Source of the DNA: Chitinophaga pinensis | GTDB taxonomy: Bacteria; Bacteroidota; Bacteroidia; UBA4408 | NCBI GenBank assembly: GCA_945861665.1 | Contig: CAMAVS010000002.1 | Location: 1-64,000 of the forward strand | Length of the DNA: 64,000 nt | Direction: 5' to 3' | Shown here: positions 43,834 to 57,529 of the stretch, piece after piece | Numbering within the stretch: the first letter of the stretch is position 1 | Layout of the letters: every line of letters begins with the position of its first letter | Translations under genes and position numbers: made by a program | The notes under the pieces: model-generated | The model's input: only the letters and a program-made list of their open reading frames with translations | Databases searched by the model: none | Told to the model about the DNA's origin: nothing

Positions 43834-46398
43834 TTAATTTTCTAGTGAATAAACCGGTAAATTTTCTTTTGTTGCATCCACAATATGATTTGTTTCCATT
43901 TCTTTTGCAGTTTCTACAAAACACTTCATATCTTTTATGGTTGCTATTTCTTTAGTAAGAGGAGTATATTCTGTAAATTCACCATTCTTAAAATAATGGA
44001 ATTTATTTGTTTCTGGATGCAATGCAATTATGTGTACCCAATCATTATTATACCATTCATAAATTTCAGGTGTTATAGTGATTGCTTTCATAACCGCCTC
44101 AGGATAATGTTCTACAACAACTAGCAAACGAACTGGATCGTGTACTTCAATCATTTGTAAAGGCAAACCTGGACGAAGATCACCATCAGCGCTGTTAGCA
44201 ACACCAATCAATCCCATTACATTGTGAGGCAATTTAGTTCCCGCACCCAATTTGTGATTATCAACTCGAGAAAAATAATATTCCAAATTAATTCCTCCAC
44301 ACACCAAACCGATTGGACGCATTACACCTGTAAGTAGTGTTGCATCTTTATCCGTGCGATAATCATAAGAGTTCATGAATGCACGCCTATCTAAAAACAA
44401 TCCTTTAGTAAGCTCTCTACTTCCGATGATACACAATGTATTTGTTCCATGTCCGAGTTCAGGTCGAGGCTCAAATAAAGAAACAGAACGATCCTTTATC
44501 GCTTTTCTTGTTTGTTTCAAGCTTCCTTTTGTATTGATGGATGCAAATCTTCTTGATCGCTCTTTCGCATTCAAATCTAATGCATCTTCAAAAGCTGCTT
44601 TATTTTTTTTATGTGCTTCCTCATTTACAGAATTCAATTGCTGCTCATCATAAAATTCTATTTCATCTGCTGCAGTATCATGCAAACCACCAACAAATTC
44701 TGTTGTGTCTGGAATAACTAACCCATGCGAACTTAAAATAGCTCTTACTTTCGGATGGTTTGTCATGAATGCAAAAACGCGAGAGTTGACAGAACCAGGT
44801 CTTCCGCTACAAGCTCCGCAATCATGAGCACCGTGATGAGGATTATTTGCACTGCTAGAACCATGTCCGACTACATAAACAATAGGTGCAAAATTTTTGA
44901 CCATTCCAATTCCACGCAATAACCCTTCTACTCTTGCAGCCATTTCCTCAATTGTGAAACCAATTTGCAAATCATTCTCTCTGTAACTTATATCTTTATT
45001 TTCTATGGATAGTGTTGCAGTTTTATCCATGTGAATAAATGCATTGGAAATGGCTGGACTCATTTTCGGAAGGAACACAGTCAAAAATAATTTTACAGCG
45101 GAAATAAATCCATAAAACATTGTGATGATAGATCCAATAAAAAAAGTATGATTCTTTTTTGTATAAAGCAACTCATGCTTTCTTTCGCCTTGCGCATTTA
45201 TTTCTTTTATCAGGTATTTTGGAAAAACGGGAGCCGGACAAAGTTTGTCGTAGAACTTAGCATTCTGTGGCTGAAAATAAAATTCAACACCAAAGAATCC
45301 CGGAGCAGCTAATGTTTCACAAGTAGGATCAACAGATTCAATATTTCTTCTTATAGAACATTCACGTTCATCGATACAGAATATGGCTTGAAAACTTGTT
45401 TTTGCAGGAGTAGCGATTTGCTTTTTCTTCCCTAGTGCAATTCCTGAAAGCACTTCATCATAATAGCTCCATTCAAATGCATCCTGCCAAAGCTTGAACA
45501 CTTCTTCCAACTCTGTAAGAGGGGCATCAGCAAAAAGATCAACAGGAGAACTATTTATTTTATTACATAAAGGCTCCCAATCATTTCCTAACTGCTTATC
45601 CAATGCATCAATTTCAAGAAGCAAATCAAAAACAACAAGATCATGAAGTGAGGTTACTCTTTTGTCGAGCAAAACATTTGGCTCTGATTCAATTGCTGAA
45701 ATCATCCCCGACCAACCTCTGTGACTGAATTGCTGATCGAACAAATATTGCTCATAGTAAGCTTCATTTCCTACAACTATTTTCAAAAGTTCTTTTATTC
45801 CAAGACCTTCTTCTAAATATTTTTTTGGTCTTTTCGTTTTAAAAAAACTGGTGAAACTATTTTTCTCAAGATCTTTAATGGCATTCAAAAAACCTTTATT
45901 CTCCTGAGGAAAATCCCAGACTGAAATTCCTTGATCAAGATAACTGCAAAGCACACGGAATAATAGTGGTTGCACCAGTGTATCCAAATCAATTTTGTGT
46001 TTTGTTTTCCAGTTTGCACGCAAAGCACCTACGCGTGGGAAAATCGACTCACTATATTCCTTTGTAAGAAGTTTTTCTTTCCAGTTTAAGAATTGCTCCG
46101 CTCCTTTTTTATCATTGATTATTTTATCAAGCACCTCCTTTTTAATTCGGCCATCTTCATACATCTTTCTAAAATCAGCAAGCTGAAGTGTTACTTTGAA
46201 ACCAAATATTTTAGACGCTTTAAAAATGGCATCATAAAATTTCATGTGCTGGAAAGCATGTAAAGAATTATGATGAATAAAATCCTTCAAGGGGGTTTGC
46301 GTAGGCAAATAATGCTTCAGCTCTTGCAAAACATGCTTTTCGTCAAACACTATGCTACTTTTGGCAACCTTTTTTTCAAGAGTGATTGTGTCGTTCAT
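43834..46398 (-). CDS. dabA: DabA, zinc-containing subunit of the DAB inorganic-carbon uptake system
   Basis: An 854-aa DUF2309/UPF0753 protein. The beta-carbonic-anhydrase-like zinc residues are intact: Cys341 and Asp343 in FCIDERECSIRR, His512 in VVGHGSSSANN and Cys527 in HDCGACSGRPG. The N-terminal HHNSLHAFQ motif is typical. DabA is thought to hydrate CO2 at the membrane in one direction, energised through DabB. It is preceded by a carbonic anhydrase gene (36 nt) and followed by dabB (7 nt). Confidence 0.93.
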   Translation of the reverse strand: MNDTITLEKKVAKSSIVFDEKHVLQELKHYLPTQTPLKDFIHHNSLHAFQHMKFYDAIFKASKIFGFKVTLQLADFRKMYEDGRIKKEVLDKIINDKKGAEQFLNWKEKLLTKEYSESIFPRVGALRANWKTKHKIDLDTLVQPLLFRVLCSYLDQGISVWDFPQENKGFLNAIKDLEKNSFTSFFKTKRPKKYLEEGLGIKELLKIVVGNEAYYEQYLFDQQFSHRGWSGMISAIESEPNVLLDKRVTSLHDLVVFDLLLEIDALDKQLGNDWEPLCNKINSSPVDLFADAPLTELEEVFKLWQDAFEWSYYDEVLSGIALGKKKQIATPAKTSFQAIFCIDERECSIRRNIESVDPTCETLAAPGFFGVEFYFQPQNAKFYDKLCPAPVFPKYLIKEINAQGERKHELLYTKKNHTFFIGSIITMFYGFISAVKLFLTVFLPKMSPAISNAFIHMDKTATLSIENKDISYRENDLQIGFTIEEMAARVEGLLRGIGMVKNFAPIVYVVGHGSSSANNPHHGAHDCGACSGRPGSVNSRVFAFMTNHPKVRAILSSHGLVIPDTTEFVGGLHDTAADEIEFYDEQQLNSVNEEAHKKNKAAFEDALDLNAKERSRRFASINTKGSLKQTRKAIKDRSVSLFEPRPELGHGTNTLCIIGSRELTKGLFLDRRAFMNSYDYRTDKDATLLTGVMRPIGLVCGGINLEYYFSRVDNHKLGAGTKLPHNVMGLIGVANSADGDLRPGLPLQMIEVHDPVRLLVVVEHYPEAVMKAITITPEIYEWYNNDWVHIIALHPETNKFHYFKNGEFTEYTPLTKEIATIKDMKCFVETAKEMETNHIVDATKENLPVYSLEN

Positions 46399-46433
46399 TT
46401 TTTATAAAATTTTCTTATACTTATTTTGTATAA

Positions 46434-47111
46434 TTAATAACTCATTTGCTCTCTAACATCGGATTTGTTGCAGATCATAGATTCTTCAAAAAATTCTACT
46501 TGTCCAGATTCTAAATTGTGTTTAGCACCAATAATTGCAGCCTCTCCATTCTCTATCATTTGCTCCAAAATATAACTACGATCTACAATTATTTTTACTG
46601 AACGCTTTAAATTGATGGTAGATACATTCTCTATAAATGATGCATTGCCGGAATTTCTTTTATCAGGTTCAGTTGTAATTGTTTCTTGATAAATAGCTGG
46701 TTGAATTTTTGACAACAACTCTGTAAGATTTCCCAATTCTATATGATCGCAAGCTCCTTTTATTGCGCCACAGCTAGAATGCCCCAATACAACAATTAAT
46801 TTTGAACCTGCAACCTTACAGGCAAATTCTATACTTCCGATAATGTCAGTATTCACCACATTTCCTGCAATCCGAATAGAAAAAACATCTCCCAGCCCTT
46901 GGTCAAAAATCAATTCCGGTGACGTACGGCTATCAATGCAACTTAATATAACCGCAAATGGCCATTGGCCTTCTCTTGTATCATTTGCTTGTTGAAGTAA
47001 ATTTCTGTTTGCTTTATAGTTTTTAACAAACCTTTCGTTGCCTTCTTTTAATATTTCCAGTGCCTTTGTTGGCGACATAGACGCTTGCGTTTCCGCAGTA
47101 TGTGTTTTCAT
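46434..47111 (-). CDS. Beta-class carbonic anhydrase
   Basis: A 225-aa enzyme interconverting CO2 and bicarbonate. The zinc ligands are Cys58 (SCIDSR), His111 and Cys114 (GHSSCGAIKGA), with the Asp60-Arg62 dyad intact. There is no signal peptide, so it is cytoplasmic. It lies 12 nt after the SulP gene and 35 nt before dabA, a position that links it to bicarbonate supply. Confidence 0.95.
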   Translation of the reverse strand: MKTHTAETQASMSPTKALEILKEGNERFVKNYKANRNLLQQANDTREGQWPFAVILSCIDSRTSPELIFDQGLGDVFSIRIAGNVVNTDIIGSIEFACKVAGSKLIVVLGHSSCGAIKGACDHIELGNLTELLSKIQPAIYQETITTEPDKRNSGNASFIENVSTINLKRSVKIIVDRSYILEQMIENGEAAIIGAKHNLESGQVEFFEESMICNKSDVREQMSY

Positions 47112-47123
47112 ACATTGTGTTTT

Positions 47124-48695
47124 TTAATGTCTGGATGTTCCTTTAAATTCGGGAATGTTTTTAAGTTCTAATGTTATCTCTTTTAGTTGTGCGGCTTCCT
47201 TGAAGTTGTGAATGATTTCGAGTACATCCATATCAATATAGTGAGAATTGGTGCCATCAATAACAACAGAGGAGCCATTTGGTAAATGATGTAATTTAAG
47301 CGCGATACTCCCTTTGTTAAGAAAGGTAACATCTTCCGCCAAGGAAATTATTGTTTTTTCTTTTCCATCATTGCTAATCGTCTGTGAAAAATAATCCCGT
47401 TTATAATTATTTCTCAAAATGAAGAAAAAGGAAACCAACATCCCTACACCAATTCCCTTTAATAAATCGGAAAACTGTATAGCAATTATAGTAATCACAA
47501 ATGGAAGAAATTGGCTCCAACCTAATTTGTACATCGATTTAAATAAAGAAACCTTTGCTAATTTATAACCAACAACTAATAAAACGGCAGCTAAGCAGGC
47601 CAAAGGAATTTTATTTAAAACGGTGGCTAATCCAATAACACTAATCAACAATAATAAACCGTGAAATATTGCCGACAATTTTGTTCTAGCACCTGAATTA
47701 ATATTTGCAGAGCTGCGAACAATAACCGCTGTTAAAGGCAGCCCCCCTATCAAACCGGATACAACATTTCCTAAACCTTGTGCTTTTAACTCACGGTTGG
47801 TTGGTGTAACTCTTTTATGCGGATCTAATTTATCGGCAGCTTCAACACATAACAACGTTTCGAGACTTGCAATAATTGCAATTGTTATTGCCACAACATA
47901 CACGTGATAGTTTCCAAAAGCACTAAAATCGGGCAATGTAAATTGATTTACAAAAGCCGTAGCGGATTCGGCAACTGGTAATTGAACAAGTTTTTCACTT
48001 GATAAGTATAGTGTTGGTTGATTTATTTTAAAAAACTCATTCATTAAAACACCCAATATAACAACCAATAGTGCGCCCGGAACAATATTGAAAAATGCAT
48101 ATTTTTTCAAAAAAGGTCGTTCCCACATAATTAATATAAACAGTGAAATACCTGCAATTATAAGTGCGCCAGGATGAACAAAATTAAATGCATATAATAT
48201 TTCGGAAAATGTATTGTGCCCATCTGCTTGAAAAAAGTCAAAATCCCCTTCATTGTCTAAATCATAACCCAATGCATGGGGTATTTGTTTTAATATTAAA
48301 ATAATACCGATAGCAGCAAGCATTCCTTTTATAACGCTTGATGGAAAATAATAGGCTATAGCTCCTGCTTTTAAATAACCCAACGCAATTTGAATTAAAC
48401 CTGCTAAAACAACTGCAAGTAAAAACACCTCATAGCCGCCTAATTGGGTAATGGAATTTAATACAATTACGGTTAAACCTGCCGCAGGTCCGCTTACACT
48501 AAGCGATGATCCGCTAGCAAATGCAACAACAATACCACCAACAATACCTGCAATAATTCCTGAAAACAAAGGCGCACCTGATGCAAGTGCAATGCCCAAA
48601 CACAATGGCAATGCTACTAAAAAGACCACTAGCCCTGCAGGTAAATCGTTTTTAAAATATTTGAAAGAGAATTCTTTATTGTTTTGATTGTTCAT
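47124..48695 (-). CDS. SulP-family anion (bicarbonate-type) transporter
   Basis: A 523-aa SLC26/SulP protein with about 12-14 membrane segments. The N-terminal block DLPAGLVVFLVALPLCLGIA and SLSVSGPAAGLTVIV motifs are characteristic. A C-terminal STAS domain (about 440-523) has the IDGTN and DVLEIIHNFKEA elements. SulP proteins carry sulfate, bicarbonate or other anions; next to a carbonic anhydrase and DAB genes, bicarbonate is most likely (inference). It is the first gene of the minus-strand group. Confidence 0.9.
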   Translation of the reverse strand: MNNQNNKEFSFKYFKNDLPAGLVVFLVALPLCLGIALASGAPLFSGIIAGIVGGIVVAFASGSSLSVSGPAAGLTVIVLNSITQLGGYEVFLLAVVLAGLIQIALGYLKAGAIAYYFPSSVIKGMLAAIGIILILKQIPHALGYDLDNEGDFDFFQADGHNTFSEILYAFNFVHPGALIIAGISLFILIMWERPFLKKYAFFNIVPGALLVVILGVLMNEFFKINQPTLYLSSEKLVQLPVAESATAFVNQFTLPDFSAFGNYHVYVVAITIAIIASLETLLCVEAADKLDPHKRVTPTNRELKAQGLGNVVSGLIGGLPLTAVIVRSSANINSGARTKLSAIFHGLLLLISVIGLATVLNKIPLACLAAVLLVVGYKLAKVSLFKSMYKLGWSQFLPFVITIIAIQFSDLLKGIGVGMLVSFFFILRNNYKRDYFSQTISNDGKEKTIISLAEDVTFLNKGSIALKLHHLPNGSSVVIDGTNSHYIDMDVLEIIHNFKEAAQLKEITLELKNIPEFKGTSRH

Positions 48696-49169: not shown

Positions 49170-49267
49170 ATAATATTTGAAATATTACTGAAAGACAGGG
49201 TATATAAAAGCCGATTTTTTTGTTAAAAAATCAAAAAACAGGTTGAAAGGTTGCTAAATAAGCTACT

Positions 49268-49323
49268 TTAACAATTCGTTTACATTCTTTATATATTATG
49301 GAAACATCAAGGCTTGACCTTTG
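49268..49323 (+). promoter_or_regulatory. Phosphate-type promoter of the receiver gene
   Basis: Half-sites TTAACA (49268), TTTACA (49279), a weak position at 49290 (TATATA) and GAAACA (49301) are in exact 11-bp phase. A 9-nt gap leads to GACCTTTG at 49316-49323, one mismatch from TAnnTTTG. The ATG is 12 nt further. The register is the same as at pstS and the porin gene. Confidence 0.6.
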
Positions 49324-49335
49324 TAAAAAACAAAT

Positions 49336-49716
49336 ATGAAAAAGAAGATTCTTATAGTAGATGATGAGCCGGATATTTTGGAATTTATATCCTATAACTT
49401 AAAAAAGCAGGGGCGCGAAGTGTTTACTGCAAACAATGGTGAACTTGGTTTACAGTCGGCACTTAACAATAAGCCCGATTTAATTATTTCCGACATTTTA
49501 ATGCCCGTAATGAATGGCATTGTTATGTGCAGAAAAATGCGTGAAAAAATTGAATTAAGTGAAACGCCATTTATCTTTTTAAGCGCAACAAATGATGATT
49601 ATCAAGTACTGTCTGCAATGGATGCAGGAGCAACACATTATGTGTCAAAACCAATTTCTATATTGGCACTATTAAATATGGTTAAAGAGCTATTAAACGA
49701 GCCTTTACACAATTAG
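49336..49716 (+). CDS. Stand-alone response-regulator receiver protein
   Basis: A 126-aa CheY-like receiver without an output domain. The acidic pocket (VDDEPD), phospho-acceptor Asp53 (ISDILMP), Ser83 and Lys105 (YVSKP) are intact. The partner kinase is not in the window. Its promoter has the same phased half-sites as the pst promoters, so it is a likely member of the phosphate regulon. Because it has no DNA-binding domain, it cannot be the PhoB-type activator itself. Confidence 0.9.
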   Translation: MKKKILIVDDEPDILEFISYNLKKQGREVFTANNGELGLQSALNNKPDLIISDILMPVMNGIVMCRKMREKIELSETPFIFLSATNDDYQVLSAMDAGATHYVSKPISILALLNMVKELLNEPLHN

Positions 49717-49754
49717 TATATTCTAATTCTAATTCCTTCTAACCACCCACATAT

Positions 49755-49810
49755 TTAACATTACCTTAACATATTGGCAATTTTACATTCACACTAAATG
49801 TATTTATTTG
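49755..49810 (+). promoter_or_regulatory. Phosphate-type promoter of the porin gene
   Basis: Half-sites TTAACA (49755), TTAACA (49766), a weak position at 49777 and TTCACA (49788) are 11 bp apart. A 9-nt gap precedes TTTATTTG at 49803-49810, a one-mismatch -7 element. A 57-nt leader follows before the ATG at 49868. Confidence 0.65.
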
Positions 49811-49867
49811 TAACGTAAAATTTACAATTAATCAACTAACCCGTTACCTTAAATTAAGATAAAATAA

Positions 49868-51115
49868 ATGATTATGACGTATTTAAGAAATTCCCTATTA
49901 ACCTCTGCTCTCTGCTTAGTTTTTTTAAATTCAACCTTAGCACAAGAAATAAAAAAAGACTCAGCCTCTGTAGTTCAAGTTTCAAAAACTGAAGTTAAAG
50001 CTCCGGCAAAAGGCTGGTACGAAAACATAGCCATTCGAGGGTATACTCAAATACGCTATAATCGATTATTTGAAACAAACGATTCTCTTAAAAATGAGCA
50101 AGGGGATAAATCCTGGGGGAGTGGTGGTTTTTTTATTAGACGTATGCGAATTATTTTTAGTGGCAACGTGCACGAGCGTGTATACATTTATATTCAACCC
50201 GATTTTGCCTCATCACCATCCACAGGCTCTAATAATTTTGCTCAATTAAGAGATGCATATTTTGATCTTTCGTTAGATAAAAAGAAAGAGTTTCGATTCC
50301 GTGTAGGTCAAAGTAAAGTGCCTTTTGGTTTTGAAAATCTACAGTCGAGTCAAAATCGTATACCACTTGACCGGAATGATGCTATTAACAGTGCCTTTTC
50401 TAACGAGCGCGACCTTGGAGTATTCTTTTATTGGGCTCCGGAGAAAACAAGAAAATTGTTTGCGTCACTTGTAAATGATGGTTTAAAAGGCAGTGGCGAT
50501 TACGGAGTTTTCGGATTTGGCGTTTTTAATGGTCAAACAGCTAATAAAAATGACTTAAACCACGACCCTCATTATGTTGCACGACTAACTTACCCTATTG
50601 AAATCAAAGGGCAAATAATAGAACCTGGAGTACAAGCTTATAAAGGAATGCACGTAGTAGAAAATCGCTCTACAGGAGTAAAAGGCCCTAACAAAGCATT
50701 CTCATTCGTTGATGAGCGTGTAGCTGCCAGCTTAATACTGTACCCAAAACCATTTGGAGTTCAAGCCGAATATACTATGGGACGCGGACCGGAGTATAAT
50801 CCAGCAACAAAAACAATTGAGACTCAAGATCTAGAAGGAGGTTATGTTACTGCGTCCTATATGTTAAAAATTAAAAAGCAGTTATTGATTCCTTTTGTTA
50901 GAGTACACTATTACGATGGTGGAAAAAAACACGAATTGGATGCAAGAAGTTATAAAGTAAACGAAAGCGAATATGGTGTTGAATGGCAACCCGTAAAAAA
51001 TTTCGAATTGGTTGCTATGTATACAATGTCTGAAAGAAGATTCGAAGACCATAAGTTGTATTTCAACAGACAAGTTGGTAGTTTGCTTCGATTGCAAGCG
51101 CAATTAAATTTTTAA
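49868..51115 (+). CDS. Phosphate-selective porin (OprO/OprP family)
   Basis: A 415-aa outer-membrane porin. It has a signal peptide (cleavage near LAQE), a periplasmic coil and about 16 predicted beta-strands ending in an aromatic residue (LQAQLNF). IRGYTQIRYNRL at the barrel start and FRVGQSKVPFGFENLQSSQN are typical of the OprO/OprP family. It would admit phosphate or polyphosphate. It lies in front of pstS with its own phosphate-type promoter and a strong terminator. Confidence 0.88.
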   Translation: MIMTYLRNSLLTSALCLVFLNSTLAQEIKKDSASVVQVSKTEVKAPAKGWYENIAIRGYTQIRYNRLFETNDSLKNEQGDKSWGSGGFFIRRMRIIFSGNVHERVYIYIQPDFASSPSTGSNNFAQLRDAYFDLSLDKKKEFRFRVGQSKVPFGFENLQSSQNRIPLDRNDAINSAFSNERDLGVFFYWAPEKTRKLFASLVNDGLKGSGDYGVFGFGVFNGQTANKNDLNHDPHYVARLTYPIEIKGQIIEPGVQAYKGMHVVENRSTGVKGPNKAFSFVDERVAASLILYPKPFGVQAEYTMGRGPEYNPATKTIETQDLEGGYVTASYMLKIKKQLLIPFVRVHYYDGGKKHELDARSYKVNESEYGVEWQPVKNFELVAMYTMSERRFEDHKLYFNRQVGSLLRLQAQLNF

Positions 51116-51155
51116 TTATCCTAAAAGAATACAACACAAATTAGTTTGTTATTTC

Positions 51156-51190
51156 AAAAGCCTTGTTTAAAAACAAGGCTTTTGCTTTTA
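51156..51190 (+). terminator. Rho-independent terminator after the porin gene
   Basis: A perfect 13-bp stem (51156-51168 with 51171-51183), a 2-nt loop or slightly shorter stem, and a T-rich tail. Confidence 0.9.
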
Positions 51191-51199
51191 CGAAAACAA

Positions 51200-51255
51200 T
51201 TATACTTTAATTAACTCAAAAGAAACATTTACTTAACACTCTTGGACGAATTTTG
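51200..51255 (+). promoter_or_regulatory. Phosphate-type promoter of pstS
   Basis: Four positions 11 bp apart: TTATAC (51200), TTAACT (51211), GAAACA (51222) and TTAACA (51233). A 9-nt gap leads to GAATTTTG at 51248-51255, one mismatch from TAnnTTTG. The ATG is at 51273. Confidence 0.65.
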
Positions 51256-51272
51256 TAAAAAAATAAAAGACA

Positions 51273-52094
51273 ATGAAAAAAAGAATTTCAATTATTGCAA
51301 CTACAATTTGCATCGTTGGTGGTACCACAATTTTTGCTCAAAAAATTAAAGGAAGTGATACTGTATTGCCCCTATCACAGAAAGAAGCTGAAAGTTTTAT
51401 GAAAACGAATAAGTCAGCAAACATTATAGTTACAGGCGGGGGGAGCGGTGTTGGAATTGCTGCACTAATGGATGGAACAACAGACATAGCAATGTCATCG
51501 CGCAAAATGAAATTGGATGAGAAAATGAAAATGCAAGATGCTGGTCGTCCATTTAAAGAGGTAATTATTGCAAACGATGCATTGTCTGTAATTGTTAATC
51601 CCAATAATAAAGTGTCCCAACTAACACGCGAACAATTAGAAGGCATATACATAGGGAAAATAAAAAACTGGAAAGAAGTTGGCGGTGACGATATGGTTAT
51701 AGTTGTTTATTCCCGTGAATCAAGTTCTGGAACTTATGAATTTTTTAAGGAGCACGTAATGAACAAAAAAAATTATGGCAGTACTGTATTAAATATGCCG
51801 GCAACCGGAGCTATTGTTCAGTCGGTTAGTCAAACTAAAGGAGCTATTGGTTATATTGGTTTAGCCTATATGGAAAAACCCGTTAAGGCTTTAAAAGTGT
51901 CATACGATAGTGGAAAAACATACATTGAGCCTTCTATGGCCAATGCTAAAAATCAAAGTTATCCTATTGTGCGTTCATTATACTACTACTATACAGTTGC
52001 AGATGAGAAAACAGTTAAACCTTTTGTAGATTTTGTTTTATCTGCTGAAGGACAAAAAATAGTGGTGGCAGAAGGCTATGTTCCTTTGAAGTAA
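51273..52094 (+). CDS. pstS: Phosphate ABC transporter substrate-binding protein PstS
   Basis: A 273-aa periplasmic phosphate-binding protein with a signal peptide (cleavage near FAQK). Phosphate-contact segments are visible: KGSDTVLPL, TGGGSGVGIAAL, DIAMSSR and the SRESSSGTYEFF loop. It delivers phosphate to PstC/PstA. It is followed by its own terminator, and pstC has a separate promoter, so pstS is expressed as a single-gene unit, probably to allow high levels. Confidence 0.94.
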   Translation: MKKRISIIATTICIVGGTTIFAQKIKGSDTVLPLSQKEAESFMKTNKSANIIVTGGGSGVGIAALMDGTTDIAMSSRKMKLDEKMKMQDAGRPFKEVIIANDALSVIVNPNNKVSQLTREQLEGIYIGKIKNWKEVGGDDMVIVVYSRESSSGTYEFFKEHVMNKKNYGSTVLNMPATGAIVQSVSQTKGAIGYIGLAYMEKPVKALKVSYDSGKTYIEPSMANAKNQSYPIVRSLYYYYTVADEKTVKPFVDFVLSAEGQKIVVAEGYVPLK

Positions 52095-52111
52095 TTAAAC
52101 TGTTTCATTTT

Positions 52112-52147
52112 AAAAGCGGCACCATAAAAGTGTCGCTTTTTTTGTGT
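52112..52147 (+). terminator. Rho-independent terminator after pstS
   Basis: An 11-bp stem (52112-52122 with 52130-52140, one G-U pair), a 7-nt loop and a run of seven or more T. Confidence 0.9.
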
Positions 52148-52161
52148 TCAATAATTTAGCA

Positions 52162-52239
52162 TTAACGCTTCGTTAACATTAAATTAACTTAAGCATAACC
52201 CTTTATTACACCTTTAAAAAAAGCACATAGGTACTTTTG
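52162..52239 (+). promoter_or_regulatory. Phosphate-type promoter of pstCAB-phoU
   Basis: Five half-sites with exact 11-bp phase: TTAACG (52162), TTAACA (52173), TTAACT (52184), ATAACC (52195) and TTACAC (52206). TACTTTTG at 52232-52239 is a perfect TAnnTTTG element, 9 nt before the ATG at 52249. Counted from the -7 element, the half-sites share the register of the other three phosphate promoters. Confidence 0.75.
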
Positions 52240-52248
52240 TGTTGATTT

Positions 52249-53451
52249 ATGAAGGCTAGAAAAATAAAGGAAAAAATAATTGAATCCATCCTATTGGCCA
52301 GCAGTTCTATTACAAGTATAACTGTTTTACTCATCGTTGTTTTTCTTTTTTCTCAAGGCGTCTCTTTGTTTGGCGACTCAACCGTTGAAAAGGGTTCAGT
52401 AATGGCAGTTAACAAAAACAACCCTGTTAAAGAACTTACAGGCAGTCAAATAAAAGAAATATTTGATCAAAACGTTGTTTATTGGAACGAAATTGGTGGT
52501 AAAAAAGATACCATTATCCTTTTCCGAATAGATGACATTGGAAATTATTATAGTGATGAAGAGATAGGCGAAAATTTCGAAGGTCTTTCGGAATGCGTAA
52601 GTCGATTGGTTGATAGCATACCCGGTATATTGGCCTATTTTCCGGAAAAATATTTGAGTAAAAATTTTAAAGGTAAAGTTCTCCCTCTTGAAAAAGTTTC
52701 ATTGAAAACTTTATTCAAAGGAAAAGAATGGTTCCCAAGTGCACAACCCGCAGCACAAATTGGTGCAATGCCCTTGATACTTGGAACCTTATGGGTAAGT
52801 TTGGGAGCTATTTTATTGGCACTTCCATTGGGGTTAGCTACAGCTGTTTATATGAGTGATATTGCACACGGCAAAGTGAGAAGAGTAATGAAACCACTTA
52901 TAGAATTATTGGCGGGCATTCCTTCGGTTGTGTATGGCTTTTTTGGATTAATTGTAATCGTTCCGCTGGTTCAACAAGTATTTAATTTGCCTGTTGGAGA
53001 AACCGCTTTGTCGGGAAGCATTGTACTAGGAATTATGGCATTGCCAACCATCATTACTGTTTCGGAAGATGCAATGAGAAACACGCCTCGCGCAATGAAA
53101 GAAGCAAGTTTAGCATTGGGTGCAACAAAATGGCAAACTATATACAGGGTTGTTATTCCTTGTTCTGCTTCCGGAATAACTGCCGGAGCAATACTTGGTA
53201 TTGGTCGTGCTATTGGCGAAACAATGGCGGTACTCATGGTTACCGGAAATGCTGCTGTAATTCCGCATACCATATTGGAGCCTGTGCGTACTATTCCCGC
53301 TACCATTGCAGCAGAATTGGGTGAAGCCGCACAAGGAGGCTTACATTTTAAGGCATTATTTGCATTGGGCTGCATTCTTTTTATCATTACACTTATCATT
53401 AATTTGCTCGTGGAATCAATTTCTGCAAGCAACAAACATAAAAGTCACTAA
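52249..53451 (+). CDS. pstC: Phosphate ABC transporter permease PstC with a PstS-like periplasmic segment
   Basis: A 400-aa permease. The first membrane helix is at about 18-40. A periplasmic segment of about 125 residues (45-170) follows, then five further helices with the usual ABC permease EAA-like motif (EASLALGATKWQTIYRVVIP). The extra segment looks like part of PstS: AVNKNNPVKELTGSQIKEIF and WNEIGG parallel the PstS sequence IVNPNNKVSQLTREQLEGIY and WKEVGG, and IPGILAYFPEKYL resembles the PstS segment GAIGYIGLAYM. The PstS phosphate loop (SRESSSGT) is absent. E. coli PstC is about 320 aa and lacks this. pstA starts 4 nt downstream. Confidence 0.93.
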   Translation: MKARKIKEKIIESILLASSSITSITVLLIVVFLFSQGVSLFGDSTVEKGSVMAVNKNNPVKELTGSQIKEIFDQNVVYWNEIGGKKDTIILFRIDDIGNYYSDEEIGENFEGLSECVSRLVDSIPGILAYFPEKYLSKNFKGKVLPLEKVSLKTLFKGKEWFPSAQPAAQIGAMPLILGTLWVSLGAILLALPLGLATAVYMSDIAHGKVRRVMKPLIELLAGIPSVVYGFFGLIVIVPLVQQVFNLPVGETALSGSIVLGIMALPTIITVSEDAMRNTPRAMKEASLALGATKWQTIYRVVIPCSASGITAGAILGIGRAIGETMAVLMVTGNAAVIPHTILEPVRTIPATIAAELGEAAQGGLHFKALFALGCILFIITLIINLLVESISASNKHKSH

Positions 53452-53454
53452 ACA

Positions 53455-54327
53455 ATGAGCTCAACGATAGCATCTAGAAAAAGACGAAATGAGCAAATTG
53501 CTTTTTGGTTGTTTCGTCTACTCAGTTTTGGTGTAGTGGCCATTCTTTTTTATATACTTTATTTTTTAGTAAGCAATGGCATAAAAGCTATCAGCTGGGA
53601 ATTTATTACTCAAATGCCCGAAGATGGAATGACTAAAGGGGGAATTTACCCTGCCATTATTGGCACACTTTATTTGGTTGCGGGCAGTATGATTTTTGCT
53701 TTCCCTATTGGGGTAGCTTCAGCAATTTATATTAATGAGTATACCAAGGATGGTGTTTTGAAAAAAATCATCAAACAAATGACCAACAATTTAGCAGGTA
53801 TTCCTTCTATTATTTTTGGACTGTTTGGCATGGCATTGTTTGTGAATCAATTAAAATTTGGCGATTCTATATTGGCAGGTTCTTTAACATTGGGACTGCT
53901 TGCATTACCTGTAGTAATTAGAACAACAGAAGAAGCATTAAAAGCAGTACCGGATACATTCCGCCAAGCAAGCTTGGGATTAGGAGCAAGCAAATGGCAA
54001 ACAACAAGCAAGGTGGTTATTCCCATTGCCTTTCCAAATATCATTACAGGTTTAATTTTATCAATTGGTAGGGTGTCAGGTGAAACAGCTCCTATTCTTT
54101 TTACTGTGGCAGCCTATTTCCTTCCAAAACTTCCGCAAAGTATATTTGACCAAGTAATGGCGCTGCCATACCACTTATATGTTATCACAACAAGCGGAAC
54201 AAATGTAGCGGAATCAAGACCGATGGCTTATGGAACAGCACTTGTGCTGATAGTAATTGTGCTAATTGCAAATTTATTGGCAAATGCACTCAGAAAGTAT
54301 TTTGGTAAAAAAGTAAAAATGAACTAA
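53455..54327 (+). CDS. pstA: Phosphate ABC transporter permease PstA
   Basis: A 290-aa permease with six predicted membrane helices and the typical permease motif ([21 protein letters not shown]). It lacks the PstS-like insert seen in PstC. Its stop codon overlaps the pstB start by one base (TAATG). With PstC it forms the membrane channel of the phosphate importer. Confidence 0.94.
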
Positions 54328-55079
54328 TGAATAAACTGGAATCAATTGATTTAAATCTTTACTACAGCGATTTTCACGCATTGAAAAATGTTTCAATGGC
54401 CGTTAAGGCGAATACGGTTGCGGCTCTTATTGGCCCTTCGGGATGCGGTAAATCAACGTACCTCCGAACCTTCAATAGGATGAATGACTTAATTGACAAT
54501 GTTAAAATTGATGGCGGTGTTTTGCTGGATGGAAAAGATATTTACGATAAAGCTGTTGTAACAGATGAGCTTCGAAAACAAGTTGGAATGGTATTTCAAA
54601 AACCAAACCCCTTTCCAAAATCTATTTATGAAAATGTGGCTTATGGATTAAGAGTAAACGGGATTAATAACAAAAAAATACTGGATGAAAGCGTTGAGAA
54701 ATCGCTGCAACAATCGGCATTGTGGGATGAGGTAAAGGACAAGCTTAAAAAATCAGCATTTGAATTATCGGGCGGGCAGCAACAACGTTTATGCATTGCG
54801 CGGGCACTTGCCATTGAGCCTACCGTTATCCTTATGGATGAGCCAGCATCCGCACTCGATCCTATTTCTACCTCAAAAATAGAAGAACTTATTTACGAGC
54901 TAAAAAAGAAGTACACCATCGTAATTGTTACGCACAATATGCAACAAGCAGGTAGAGTAAGCGATTACACAGCCTTTTTTTATATGGGAAGCCTCATTGA
55001 ATATGGCGAAACAAAAGAAATATTTACGAATCCTAAAAATCAACAAACCCAAAACTACATAACCGGTAGGTTTGGATAA
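54327..55079 (+). CDS. pstB: Phosphate ABC transporter ATPase PstB
   Basis: A 250-aa ATP-binding subunit with intact Walker A (GPSGCGKST), Q-loop ([11 protein letters not shown]), ABC signature ([15 protein letters not shown]), Walker B ([13 protein letters not shown]) and switch His (VTHNM). The QKPNPFP motif is typical for PstB. It overlaps pstA by one base and is followed by phoU after 11 nt. Confidence 0.96.
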
Positions 55080-55090
55080 ATAATAATTGT

Positions 55091-55753
55091 ATGTCACATT
55101 TAGAAACAGAACTTCATTTACTAAAAGAGGGCCTCATTGAAATGACGAGGCTTGTAAAAATTCAATTGTTCAAAGGGCGCGATGCACTGCTGAATTTTGA
55201 TAGAGATTTAGCGCGTGAAATAATTGTAAATGAAAATCGCATAAATGCATTGGAGTTGAAAATTGACAGGGATTGTGAAAATATCTTTGCGCTTTGTAAT
55301 CCGGTTGCTGTTGATTTGCGTTTTGTATTGGCTGCCTTAAAAATAAATGCCAACCTTGAGCGAATTGGCGATAATGCTGAAGGAATTGCGCGTTATGTGA
55401 TGGAAGTTGACAGACCTTTTGATGAAAAAATAATAAAAGGTTATTGTGTTGAAGAAATGTGTAATACTGCTACTTCGATGCTCGACAATACATTGGAGGC
55501 CCTACTGCAAGAAGATACCAAACTTGCTCGGCAAGTATTTTTAAAAGACGATCGATTAGATGAAATAAACAGAGATTGTACAAAAACAACACTGCGCTTA
55601 CTGAAAGAGAACCCTGATAATGCATTGCATTATCTTAGTATAATGTCAATTATTCGAAAGCTTGAACGTGTGGGCGATCAGTCAAAAAACATTGCAGAAG
55701 AGATTATCTTTTATATTGAAGCAAAGGTATTGAAGCATACCGAGGAGAAATAG
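55091..55753 (+). CDS. phoU: Phosphate regulator PhoU
   Basis: A 220-aa all-helical protein with two PhoU domains. The metal-binding E-x-x-x-D motifs are seen as NLERIGDNAEGIAR in the first half and KLERVGDQSKNIAEE in the second. It links Pst transport to the signalling of a PhoR-type kinase and lies last in the pstC-pstA-pstB-phoU unit. Confidence 0.94.
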   Translation: MSHLETELHLLKEGLIEMTRLVKIQLFKGRDALLNFDRDLAREIIVNENRINALELKIDRDCENIFALCNPVAVDLRFVLAALKINANLERIGDNAEGIARYVMEVDRPFDEKIIKGYCVEEMCNTATSMLDNTLEALLQEDTKLARQVFLKDDRLDEINRDCTKTTLRLLKENPDNALHYLSIMSIIRKLERVGDQSKNIAEEIIFYIEAKVLKHTEEK

Positions 55754-55757
55754 TCAA

Positions 55758-55840
55758 TGTTAAGTAATTGTTAACAATGTTAATTTAGTGTTACTAATAT
55801 TAAATTGATGTTAAGCAGATGTGTTTTAATGATAGATTTG
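55758..55840 (+). promoter_or_regulatory. Promoter of DUF47-pit with six reversed half-sites
   Basis: TGTTAA-like half-sites start at 55758, 55769, 55778, 55789 (TGTTAC), 55798 (TATTAA) and 55809, i.e. spacings 11, 9, 11, 9 and 11. That is three tandem dimer sites with a 20-bp period. TAGATTTG at 55833-55840 is a perfect TAnnTTTG element, 29 nt before the ATG. The conserved bases are those in front of TTAA, so these sites run opposite to the TTAACA sites of the other phosphate promoters. Confidence 0.7.
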
Positions 55841-55869: not shown

Positions 55870-56508
55870 ATGGGCATCCTACAATTACTAATTCCAAAAG
55901 ACAGAATATTTTTTCCTTTATTGGAAAAAGCATCCTTTAACTTAGTTACAATATCTAAGGCATTATATGATGCTTTAACAACAACTTCTGCCGAAGAAAG
56001 AATTGTGCTTATTCGTGAAATTGAGCGCATTGAGCACGAAGGAGATAAGGTTACTCACGAAATTATGCATCAATTGAGTGCAACGTTTATTACCCCCTTT
56101 GATCGTGAAGACATACACGAACTAACATCAGCTATCGATGATATTTTGGATCATATTCACGGTTCGGCAAAACGAATAGAAATTTATAAAGTCACAAACA
56201 TTTCTCCGGCTATGATTAAATTGGCCGAATTAATTCAACAAGCTGCCGATGAACTTTACAAAGCGATTCACGAACTACGCGACTTAAAAAACACAAATAC
56301 CATTCGTGAAGCCAGTATTCGAATAAACAGTATTGAAAACCATGCAGACGATGTGTTTGACAATGCTGTAGCAAAATTATTTGAAGAAGAAAAAGACGCC
56401 ATTGAGTTGATTAAAATTAAAGAAGTATTGCAAAACTTAGAAAAAGCAACTGATAAATGCGAAGATGCAGCAAATGTATTGTCGAGCATATTGGTTAAAC
56501 ACAGCTAA
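55870..56508 (+). CDS. DUF47-family (PhoU-like) protein, Pit partner
   Basis: A 212-aa helical protein of the DUF47/YkaA family, related to PhoU, with conserved IERIEHEGDKVTHEIM and ALENHADDVFDNAV-like metal-binding segments. These proteins sit next to pit genes and are thought to control low-affinity phosphate import. It starts a two-gene unit with pit (31 nt apart) that has its own phosphate-type promoter. Confidence 0.9.
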   Translation: MGILQLLIPKDRIFFPLLEKASFNLVTISKALYDALTTTSAEERIVLIREIERIEHEGDKVTHEIMHQLSATFITPFDREDIHELTSAIDDILDHIHGSAKRIEIYKVTNISPAMIKLAELIQQAADELYKAIHELRDLKNTNTIREASIRINSIENHADDVFDNAVAKLFEEEKDAIELIKIKEVLQNLEKATDKCEDAANVLSSILVKHS

Positions 56509-56539: not shown

Positions 56540-57529
56540 ATGTCAACATTTCTTATAATCATTATTATATTGGCCATCATCTTTGATTTTATCAACGGAT
56601 TTCACGATGCCGCCAACTCCATTGCAACAGTGGTTTCCACCAATGTGCTTTCTCCGGTGGCAGCAGTTATTTGGGCTGCATTTTTTAATTTTTTAGCCTT
56701 TTGGATATTCGACTTAAAAGTTGCCGATACGGTTGCTAAAATTGTAAAACCCGAAGGCTTAACACTTGTTGTTGTTGCTTCGGGCTTATGTGCTGCTATT
56801 TTCTGGAACCTGCTAACTTGGTGGAAAGGTATCCCATCCAGTTCTTCTCATACACTTATTGGTGGATTTGCAGGCGCTGCAATAGCACACGCAGGTTTTC
56901 ACGCAGTAAAAATTGATAAAATATTACCTCCATTGGCATTTATTCTTCTTGCCCCTATTATAGGAATGGTAGTTTCTATTCTTATTTCTGCAATTTCTAC
57001 TCAATTGGTAAAAAATTCTAACCCAAGTAAAGTAGATACGGCTTTTAGGGTGTTACAACTAGTCTCATCTGCAGCATTCAGCTTGGGTCACGGAGGTAAC
57101 GATGCACAAAAAGTAATAGGAATTATTGCTGCTGCATTGTTTGCCGGAGGACAAATTGGCGACATTAAAGATATTCCAAATTGGGTTCCTATAACCTGTT
57201 ATTCTGCAATTGCATTAGGTACTATGATGGGTGGTTGGAAGATTGTAAAAACGATGGGGCAAAAAGTTACCAAACTAAGACCATTTGAAGGGTTTGCCGC
57301 TGAAACTGCCGGCGCTGTTACATTATTCAGCACAGGCGCATTGGGTATTCCGGTGAGTACTACACACACCATTACAGGAGCCATTATTGGTGTGGGCGCA
57401 TTGAAAAGAACCTCGGCTGTTCGCTGGGGTGTTACCATTGAATTGATATGGGCTTGGATACTAACTATTCCTGTTACAGCAATTGTAGCTGCAACTTTCT
57501 ATTATTTATTCAGCTTGTTAATTAAATAA
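56540..57529 (+). CDS. pit: Inorganic phosphate transporter Pit
   Basis: A 329-aa PiT-family (SLC20-like) carrier with about ten membrane segments. The two inverted PD001131-type signatures are visible: NGFHDAANSIATVVSTNVLS near the start and GHGGNDAQKVIGIIAAAL in the second half, along with PVSTTHTITGAIIGVG. It imports metal-phosphate with protons. The neighbouring DUF47 protein is its usual partner. Confidence 0.95.
   Translation: MSTFLIIIIILAIIFDFINGFHDAANSIATVVSTNVLSPVAAVIWAAFFNFLAFWIFDLKVADTVAKIVKPEGLTLVVVASGLCAAIFWNLLTWWKGIPSSSSHTLIGGFAGAAIAHAGFHAVKIDKILPPLAFILLAPIIGMVVSILISAISTQLVKNSNPSKVDTAFRVLQLVSSAAFSLGHGGNDAQKVIGIIAAALFAGGQIGDIKDIPNWVPITCYSAIALGTMMGGWKIVKTMGQKVTKLRPFEGFAAETAGAVTLFSTGALGIPVSTTHTITGAIIGVGALKRTSAVRWGVTIELIWAWILTIPVTAIVAATFYYLFSLLIK

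Follow-up and report, generated by a model that had tools for sequence, protein, structure and literature searches.

Which signal controls the phosphate genes of Bacteroidota, a phylum for which a literature search found no description of a Pho box? The question is raised by a stretch of 64,000 nucleotides from Chitinophaga pinensis (contig CAMAVS010000002.1, positions 1 to 64,000; hereafter the window), which forms the first part of a 394-kb contig in a Bacteroidota genome of 2.49 Mb that is 99.8% complete. In the window, genes for a stand-alone receiver, a porin, pstS, pstC, pstA, pstB, phoU, a DUF47 protein and a PiT permease form a series, and arrays of TTAACA-like half-sites precede the receiver, porin, pstS and pstC genes. 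Judged from sequence comparison, the TTAACA arrays are very probably the undescribed Pho box of Bacteroidota, because they are placed like the PhoB sites of Escherichia coli and because the layout recurs across the phylum. The arrays and -7 elements, by direct reading, are as follows:

49268 to 49306, + strand: receiver array, TTAACA (49268), TTTACA (49279), TATATA (49290, weak), GAAACA (49301)
49316 to 49323, + strand: receiver -7 element, GACCTTTG
49755 to 49793, + strand: porin array, TTAACA (49755), TTAACA (49766), GCAATT (49777, weak), TTCACA (49788)
49803 to 49810, + strand: porin -7 element, TTTATTTG
51200 to 51238, + strand: pstS array, TTATAC (51200), TTAACT (51211), GAAACA (51222), TTAACA (51233)
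51248 to 51255, + strand: pstS -7 element, GAATTTTG
52162 to 52211, + strand: pstC array, TTAACG (52162), TTAACA (52173), TTAACT (52184), ATAACC (52195), TTACAC (52206)
52232 to 52239, + strand: pstC -7 element, TACTTTTG

The preliminary description of this locus had placed half-sites 48, 37, 26 and 15 base pairs (bp) before the -7 element of all four promoters, and all 16 hexamers match when read from the sequence. At pstC no half-site is found at -15, and the two extra half-sites claimed at -70 and -59 are present (TTAACG and TTAACA). The window arrays run head to tail every 11 bp and abut a -10-type element at a fixed distance, replacing the -35/-33 element, before pst and other phosphate genes. 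Two details needed amendment. The proposed -7 sequence TAnnTTTG is matched in full at pstC only, and the other three elements miss the leading T, the A or both. A half-site over the -33 region had been assigned to one promoter; position -26 in fact covers -33 in all four. None of the four has TTTG at -33 (the letters there are ATAT, ATTT, ACAT and CACC), and they therefore look activator-dependent.

To examine the register, offsets of 8-59 were paired with spacings of 7-16 into 520 grids, and the score of each grid was summed over the four promoters. The top grid was offset 15 with spacing 11 (score 42.0), and the grids ranked 2 to 4 were the same lattice moved by one, two and three repeats (28.5, 27.1 and 4.0); the remaining grids scored about 0 or less (mean -40, standard deviation 13). 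Against shuffles that preserve dinucleotides, the best 11-bp array in the 200-bp upstream region of each promoter gave p values of 0.002 (receiver), 0.001 (porin), 0.007 (pstS) and 0.0005 (pstC).

The same lattice appears when the phylum is searched blindly. The pattern TTAACA-N5-TTAACA-N{3,33}-TAnnTTTG, applied to 396 Bacteroidota genomes without use of annotation, gave 123 matches, against a handful for a reversed control pattern. Gap lengths peaked at 9, 20-21 and 31, which is the lattice predicted by the claimed register. Hits at random distances from promoters had been named beforehand as the outcome that would contradict a Pho box; instead, 60 of the 123 gaps were exactly 9, 20 or 31, where 11.9 were expected, and after deduplication 42 of 92 were, where 8.9 were expected (p about 5e-19). 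The first downstream genes were classified with Pfam and collapsed into groups by hand, gap 21 being counted as lattice and TonB-dependent receptors being excluded from the phosphate genes, though frequent on the lattice. Phosphate genes came first in 17 of 41 lattice groups and in 0 of 14 off-lattice groups; those behind lattice matches were Porin_O_P, PHO4, DUF47/PhoU_div, PstS, PstC, phosphoesterase and 5'-nucleotidase genes. In this genome, TTWACA-N5-TTWACA alone showed no excess over its reversed control (9+3 vs 9+3), and the bare half-site pair is therefore not specific without the -7 register.

Other genes were also observed behind such arrays. Lattice or near-lattice arrays stand before genes for a family of lipoprotein-like proteins (about 460 amino acids; no Pfam match in one member scanned), for MarR-type regulators and for YceI proteins, most of them in family f49 (loci L136, L157, L159, L161-L163; L140, L146 and others; L132, L137). 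A family of membrane proteins of about 378 amino acids, with weak PHO4 similarity below cut-off, has in-register or near-register arrays as well (L129-L131, L133; one family).

Conservation was then followed in the DNA that precedes the pstS, pstC and porin genes of Flavobacterium, Adhaeribacter, Phocaeicola, Crocinitomicaceae, other named Bacteroidota and relatives of the window genome. Porin promoters of the relatives and the window reached a mean best score of 14.6 with the 11-bp spacing, whereas spacings of 8-10 and 12-15 bp gave 3.5-5.9. In the negative control, the DNA upstream of phoU, the 11-bp spacing had no advantage. The 74 deduplicated pst/porin regions held 29 near-TTAACA pairs at 11 bp, 9 at 22 bp and 10 at 33 bp, compared with 2.3 +/- 1.8 pairs at other distances. 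The half-sites are thus conserved in relatives, where their absence had been foreseen as an argument against the box.

An independent matrix, R1, models the 39-bp array by sequence alone. It was derived from 26 promoters outside this genome, with the -7 elements left out; locus L177 was omitted, its MAFFT alignment being shifted by one repeat. The in-register promoter table behind R1 was register-selected by construction and served matrix building only, not as evidence for the register. Trained without this genome, R1 recovered all four window promoters: its five best places in the window were these promoters and the phoU-DUF47 gap, with 10.8 bits at the receiver (49264-49292), 14.5 bits at the porin array and 16.1 bits at the pstC array, the second-best match in the genome. 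Genome-wide, 8 of 26 R1 matches fell at the window cluster or phoB, with 0.07 expected. About 18 other matches were rejected as Pho boxes and are taken as chance, an in-register -7 element being mostly absent from them. The register, conservation and independent-matrix tests all support the arrays as the Pho box of this Bacteroidota lineage, at which binding is predicted.

A suitable regulator is encoded in the genome, which contains four full OmpR-type regulators and one weak partial match. The PhoB candidate lies at C2:178 kb, on the same contig as the window, and is followed by a kinase gene whose best models are PnpS and PhoR, below the equivalog cut-offs. Its recognition helix, DRTIDVHIRKLR, is nearly identical to DRTVDVHIRRLR, the helix seen in structures of E. 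coli PhoB (1GXP and 3T72, among others). A PhoB-type regulator with a conserved recognition helix and a PhoR-like kinase are present in the genome. A box is also found at phoB itself (ATAATA, TTAATA, TTAACT, TTAACA), with the -7 element one base off register; autoregulation is therefore implied. The genome also encodes, at C2:257 kb (L013), an orphan PhoB paralogue whose recognition helix differs only slightly. The TonB-dependent receptor gene divergent from it has a box in register, with TTAACA at -48, TTAACC at -26 and the -7 element TAGCTTTG (L013 2265-2343). In Flavobacterium johnsoniae, the phoBR cluster includes a TonB-dependent receptor that is strongly induced by phosphate depletion (PMC8115612).

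The likeness to PhoB and PhoP boxes of other phyla, proposed from the start, is borne out by the pstS promoter of E. coli MG1655, where CTGTCAT, CTGTCAT, CTTACAT and CTGTCAC stand 50, 39, 28 and 17 bp before TATTTT; the 11-bp geometry is the same as the 48/37/26/15 of the window. The PhoP box of Bacillus subtilis consists of TT(A/T/C)ACA repeats, with a near-identical half-site and 11-bp phasing, in another phylum and with another sigma factor and other promoter elements. Shared with the E. coli pstS box are the four head-to-tail half-sites at 11 bp, the fixed short distance to a -10-type element, the replaced -35/-33 element and the position before pst (PMC4415409). The differences are TTAACA here instead of CTGTCAT, TAnnTTTG instead of TATAAT and an offset of 15 instead of 17; unlike in E. 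coli, pstS, pstC and the porin gene here each have their own array. The CTGTCAT half-site itself was not found in the window arrays, but this is not a defining failure, because the Pho-box consensus varies by species (PMC4415409). Within Bacteroidota, PhoB of Bacteroides fragilis binds the pstC promoter and is required for pstC expression, with no box sequence found in the paper's text (PMC3547664). No PhoP box with TTAACA came up in a literature search, and a paper on RprY gave no motif.

The four arrays are regarded with high confidence as Pho boxes, that is, tandem 11-bp TTAACA operators that would be bound by PhoB at low phosphate and would recruit the primary sigma factor. Binding by PhoB, activation and low-phosphate induction are predicted here by analogy with E. 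coli PhoB and B. fragilis. At low phosphate, PhoR would phosphorylate PhoB, which would then line up head to tail on the tandem half-sites. The array, ending 9 bp before the -7 octamer, would stand where a -33 element is otherwise expected, and the promoter-proximal pair (-26/-15) would contact the sigma factor instead of that element. In this way PhoB may recruit the Bacteroidota primary sigma factor to the promoters of the receiver, the porin, pstS and pstCAB-phoU, as at E. coli pstS.

A second lattice exists beside this one. In a free-spacing scan of 295 genomes, the matches listed included TTAACA pairs spaced 10 bp apart, with gaps of 31/32, and moxR lay downstream in 12 of the 20 cases fetched. 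At moxR (the Bat operon), the 10-bp pairs stand 47/37 (48/38) bp before -7 in many Bacteroidota families (loci L245-L247, L249-L251, L255, L258-L260, L262 and L263); the moxR promoter of this genome (L264, C5:109 kb) also carries one, as does an HtrA-like protease gene (L254). No half-site pair at 10 bp, and so none of the moxR/bat type about 47/37 bp before -7, was found in the 74 pst/porin regions of relatives. The 10-bp lattice at moxR/bat is probably read by a different OmpR-type regulator. Because it precedes moxR/bat, the Pho class is marked by its 11-bp spacing and not by TTAACA alone, and spacing probably separates two regulators.

A further array, absent from the preliminary description, lies upstream of the DUF47-pit genes in reversed orientation:

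55758 to 55814, - strand: fifth array of six half-sites, TTAACA, TTAATA, GTAACA, TTAACA, TTAACA, TTAACA
55833 to 55840, + strand: DUF47-pit -7 element, TAGATTTG

Its half-sites are spaced 11-9-11-9-11, and the nearest one (55809-55814) covers the -33 region. Four genomes of the same family (L272-L274, L276) have reversed half-sites 43 and 32 bp before the DUF47-pit -7 element; many other relatives have a forward array at this promoter, which in L278 is in register. A natural guess is that the reversed array represses pit, the low-affinity transporter, as a switch from activation to repression. More broadly, two OmpR-family regulators of Bacteroidota may share TTAACA and be split by spacing, 11 bp for PhoB and phosphate and 10 bp for moxR-bat and envelope or oxidative stress, with the PhoB sites of the PiT locus reversed in this family and the operator changed from activating to repressing; this combined proposal is tentative, its chance being judged slightly short of even.

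Several observations weigh against the Pho-box reading. Half-sites are poor at 3 of 16 lattice positions; the best model of the C2:178 kb regulator is PhoB (TIGR02154), but its score of 222 bits is under the cut-off of 296; the orphan paralogue and two other OmpR-type regulators are present; several lattice matches elsewhere precede genes without a known phosphate link; and in Bacteroidales, many G+C-rich pst promoters have weak arrays only. The sites could thus belong to another TTAACA-reading OmpR-family regulator, either that of the 10-bp moxR/bat class or the C2:257 kb paralogue, the phosphate link then being indirect. This is improbable, though the 10-bp pairs before moxR, present in this genome as in many families, and the recognition helix of the paralogue speak for it. 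So does PhoP of Riemerella anatipestifer, another member of Bacteroidota. This OmpR-type regulator, described as ArcA-like, binds the moxR promoter, and its motif by DNA affinity purification sequencing (DAP-seq), TTTAACA, contains the TTAACA core (PMC9603813); in the text consulted, no mention of an 11-bp array, a promoter register or pst was found. The Riemerella motif might be taken for the present box, but the moxR target, which suits the 10-bp class, would speak against this. Against another regulator, the pst/porin promoters of relatives hold their 29 pairs at 11 bp and none at 10, and no pst, porin, PiT or DUF47 gene occurs among the off-lattice and 10-bp gene sets examined.

Repression of the four promoters by the arrays is a still fainter prospect. 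The -26 half-site over the -33 region and the reversed DUF47-pit array would fit it; however, the class-II geometry is that of the activated E. coli pstS promoter, pstC expression in B. fragilis needs PhoB (PMC3547664), and the promoters without TTTG at -33 appear to depend on an activator. Chance, that is, AT-rich intergenic words chosen by eye and a register tuned by picking a fitting TTTG, may be suspected in a window with an A+T content of 64% where three of the four -7 elements deviate from TAnnTTTG, but the grid, shuffle, blind phylum, independent-matrix and spacing tests leave it practically no room.

The genes and other features around the arrays are as follows:

49336 to 49716, + strand: stand-alone receiver, 126 amino acids, without a DNA-binding domain
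49868 to 51115, + strand: outer-membrane porin, assigned by its position beside pst and by homology to the pst-adjacent porins of relatives
51273 to 52094, + strand: pstS
52112 to 52140, + strand: hairpin resembling an intrinsic terminator, between pstS and pstC
52249 to 55753, + strand: pstC, pstA, pstB and phoU
55870 to 56508, + strand: DUF47 (PhoU_div)
56540 to 57529, + strand: PiT-type phosphate permease, assigned by sequence and operon order

Because the terminator-like hairpin separates pstS from pstC, pstCAB-phoU plausibly needs its own promoter. The porin shares 58-60% with pst-adjacent porins of Adhaeribacter and Flavobacterium. The stand-alone receiver is, by its 48% identity to the receiver domain of this genome's PhoB, PhoB-derived; speculatively, it might act as a feedback drain of PhoR phosphoryl groups, a possible phosphoryl sink. 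Similar stand-alone receivers of 127-132 amino acids also occur in three relatives (L295, L298, L299). On the opposite strand, at 43834-48695, genes for a large DUF2309/DabA-like protein, a carbonic anhydrase and a SulP-type transporter, assigned from their sequences, suggest an inorganic-carbon uptake cluster.

PhoB is of importance in Bacteroidota, both to plant-associated phosphorus turnover and to host-dwelling Bacteroides. With a defined box in a fixed register, Pho regulons would become predictable across a major phylum. The arrays also indicate that the class-II promoter layout of PhoB may work with a quite different -7/-33 promoter, and the contrast between 10-bp and 11-bp spacing would make it possible to test cleanly by what means response regulators that are paralogues stay apart on one half-site.

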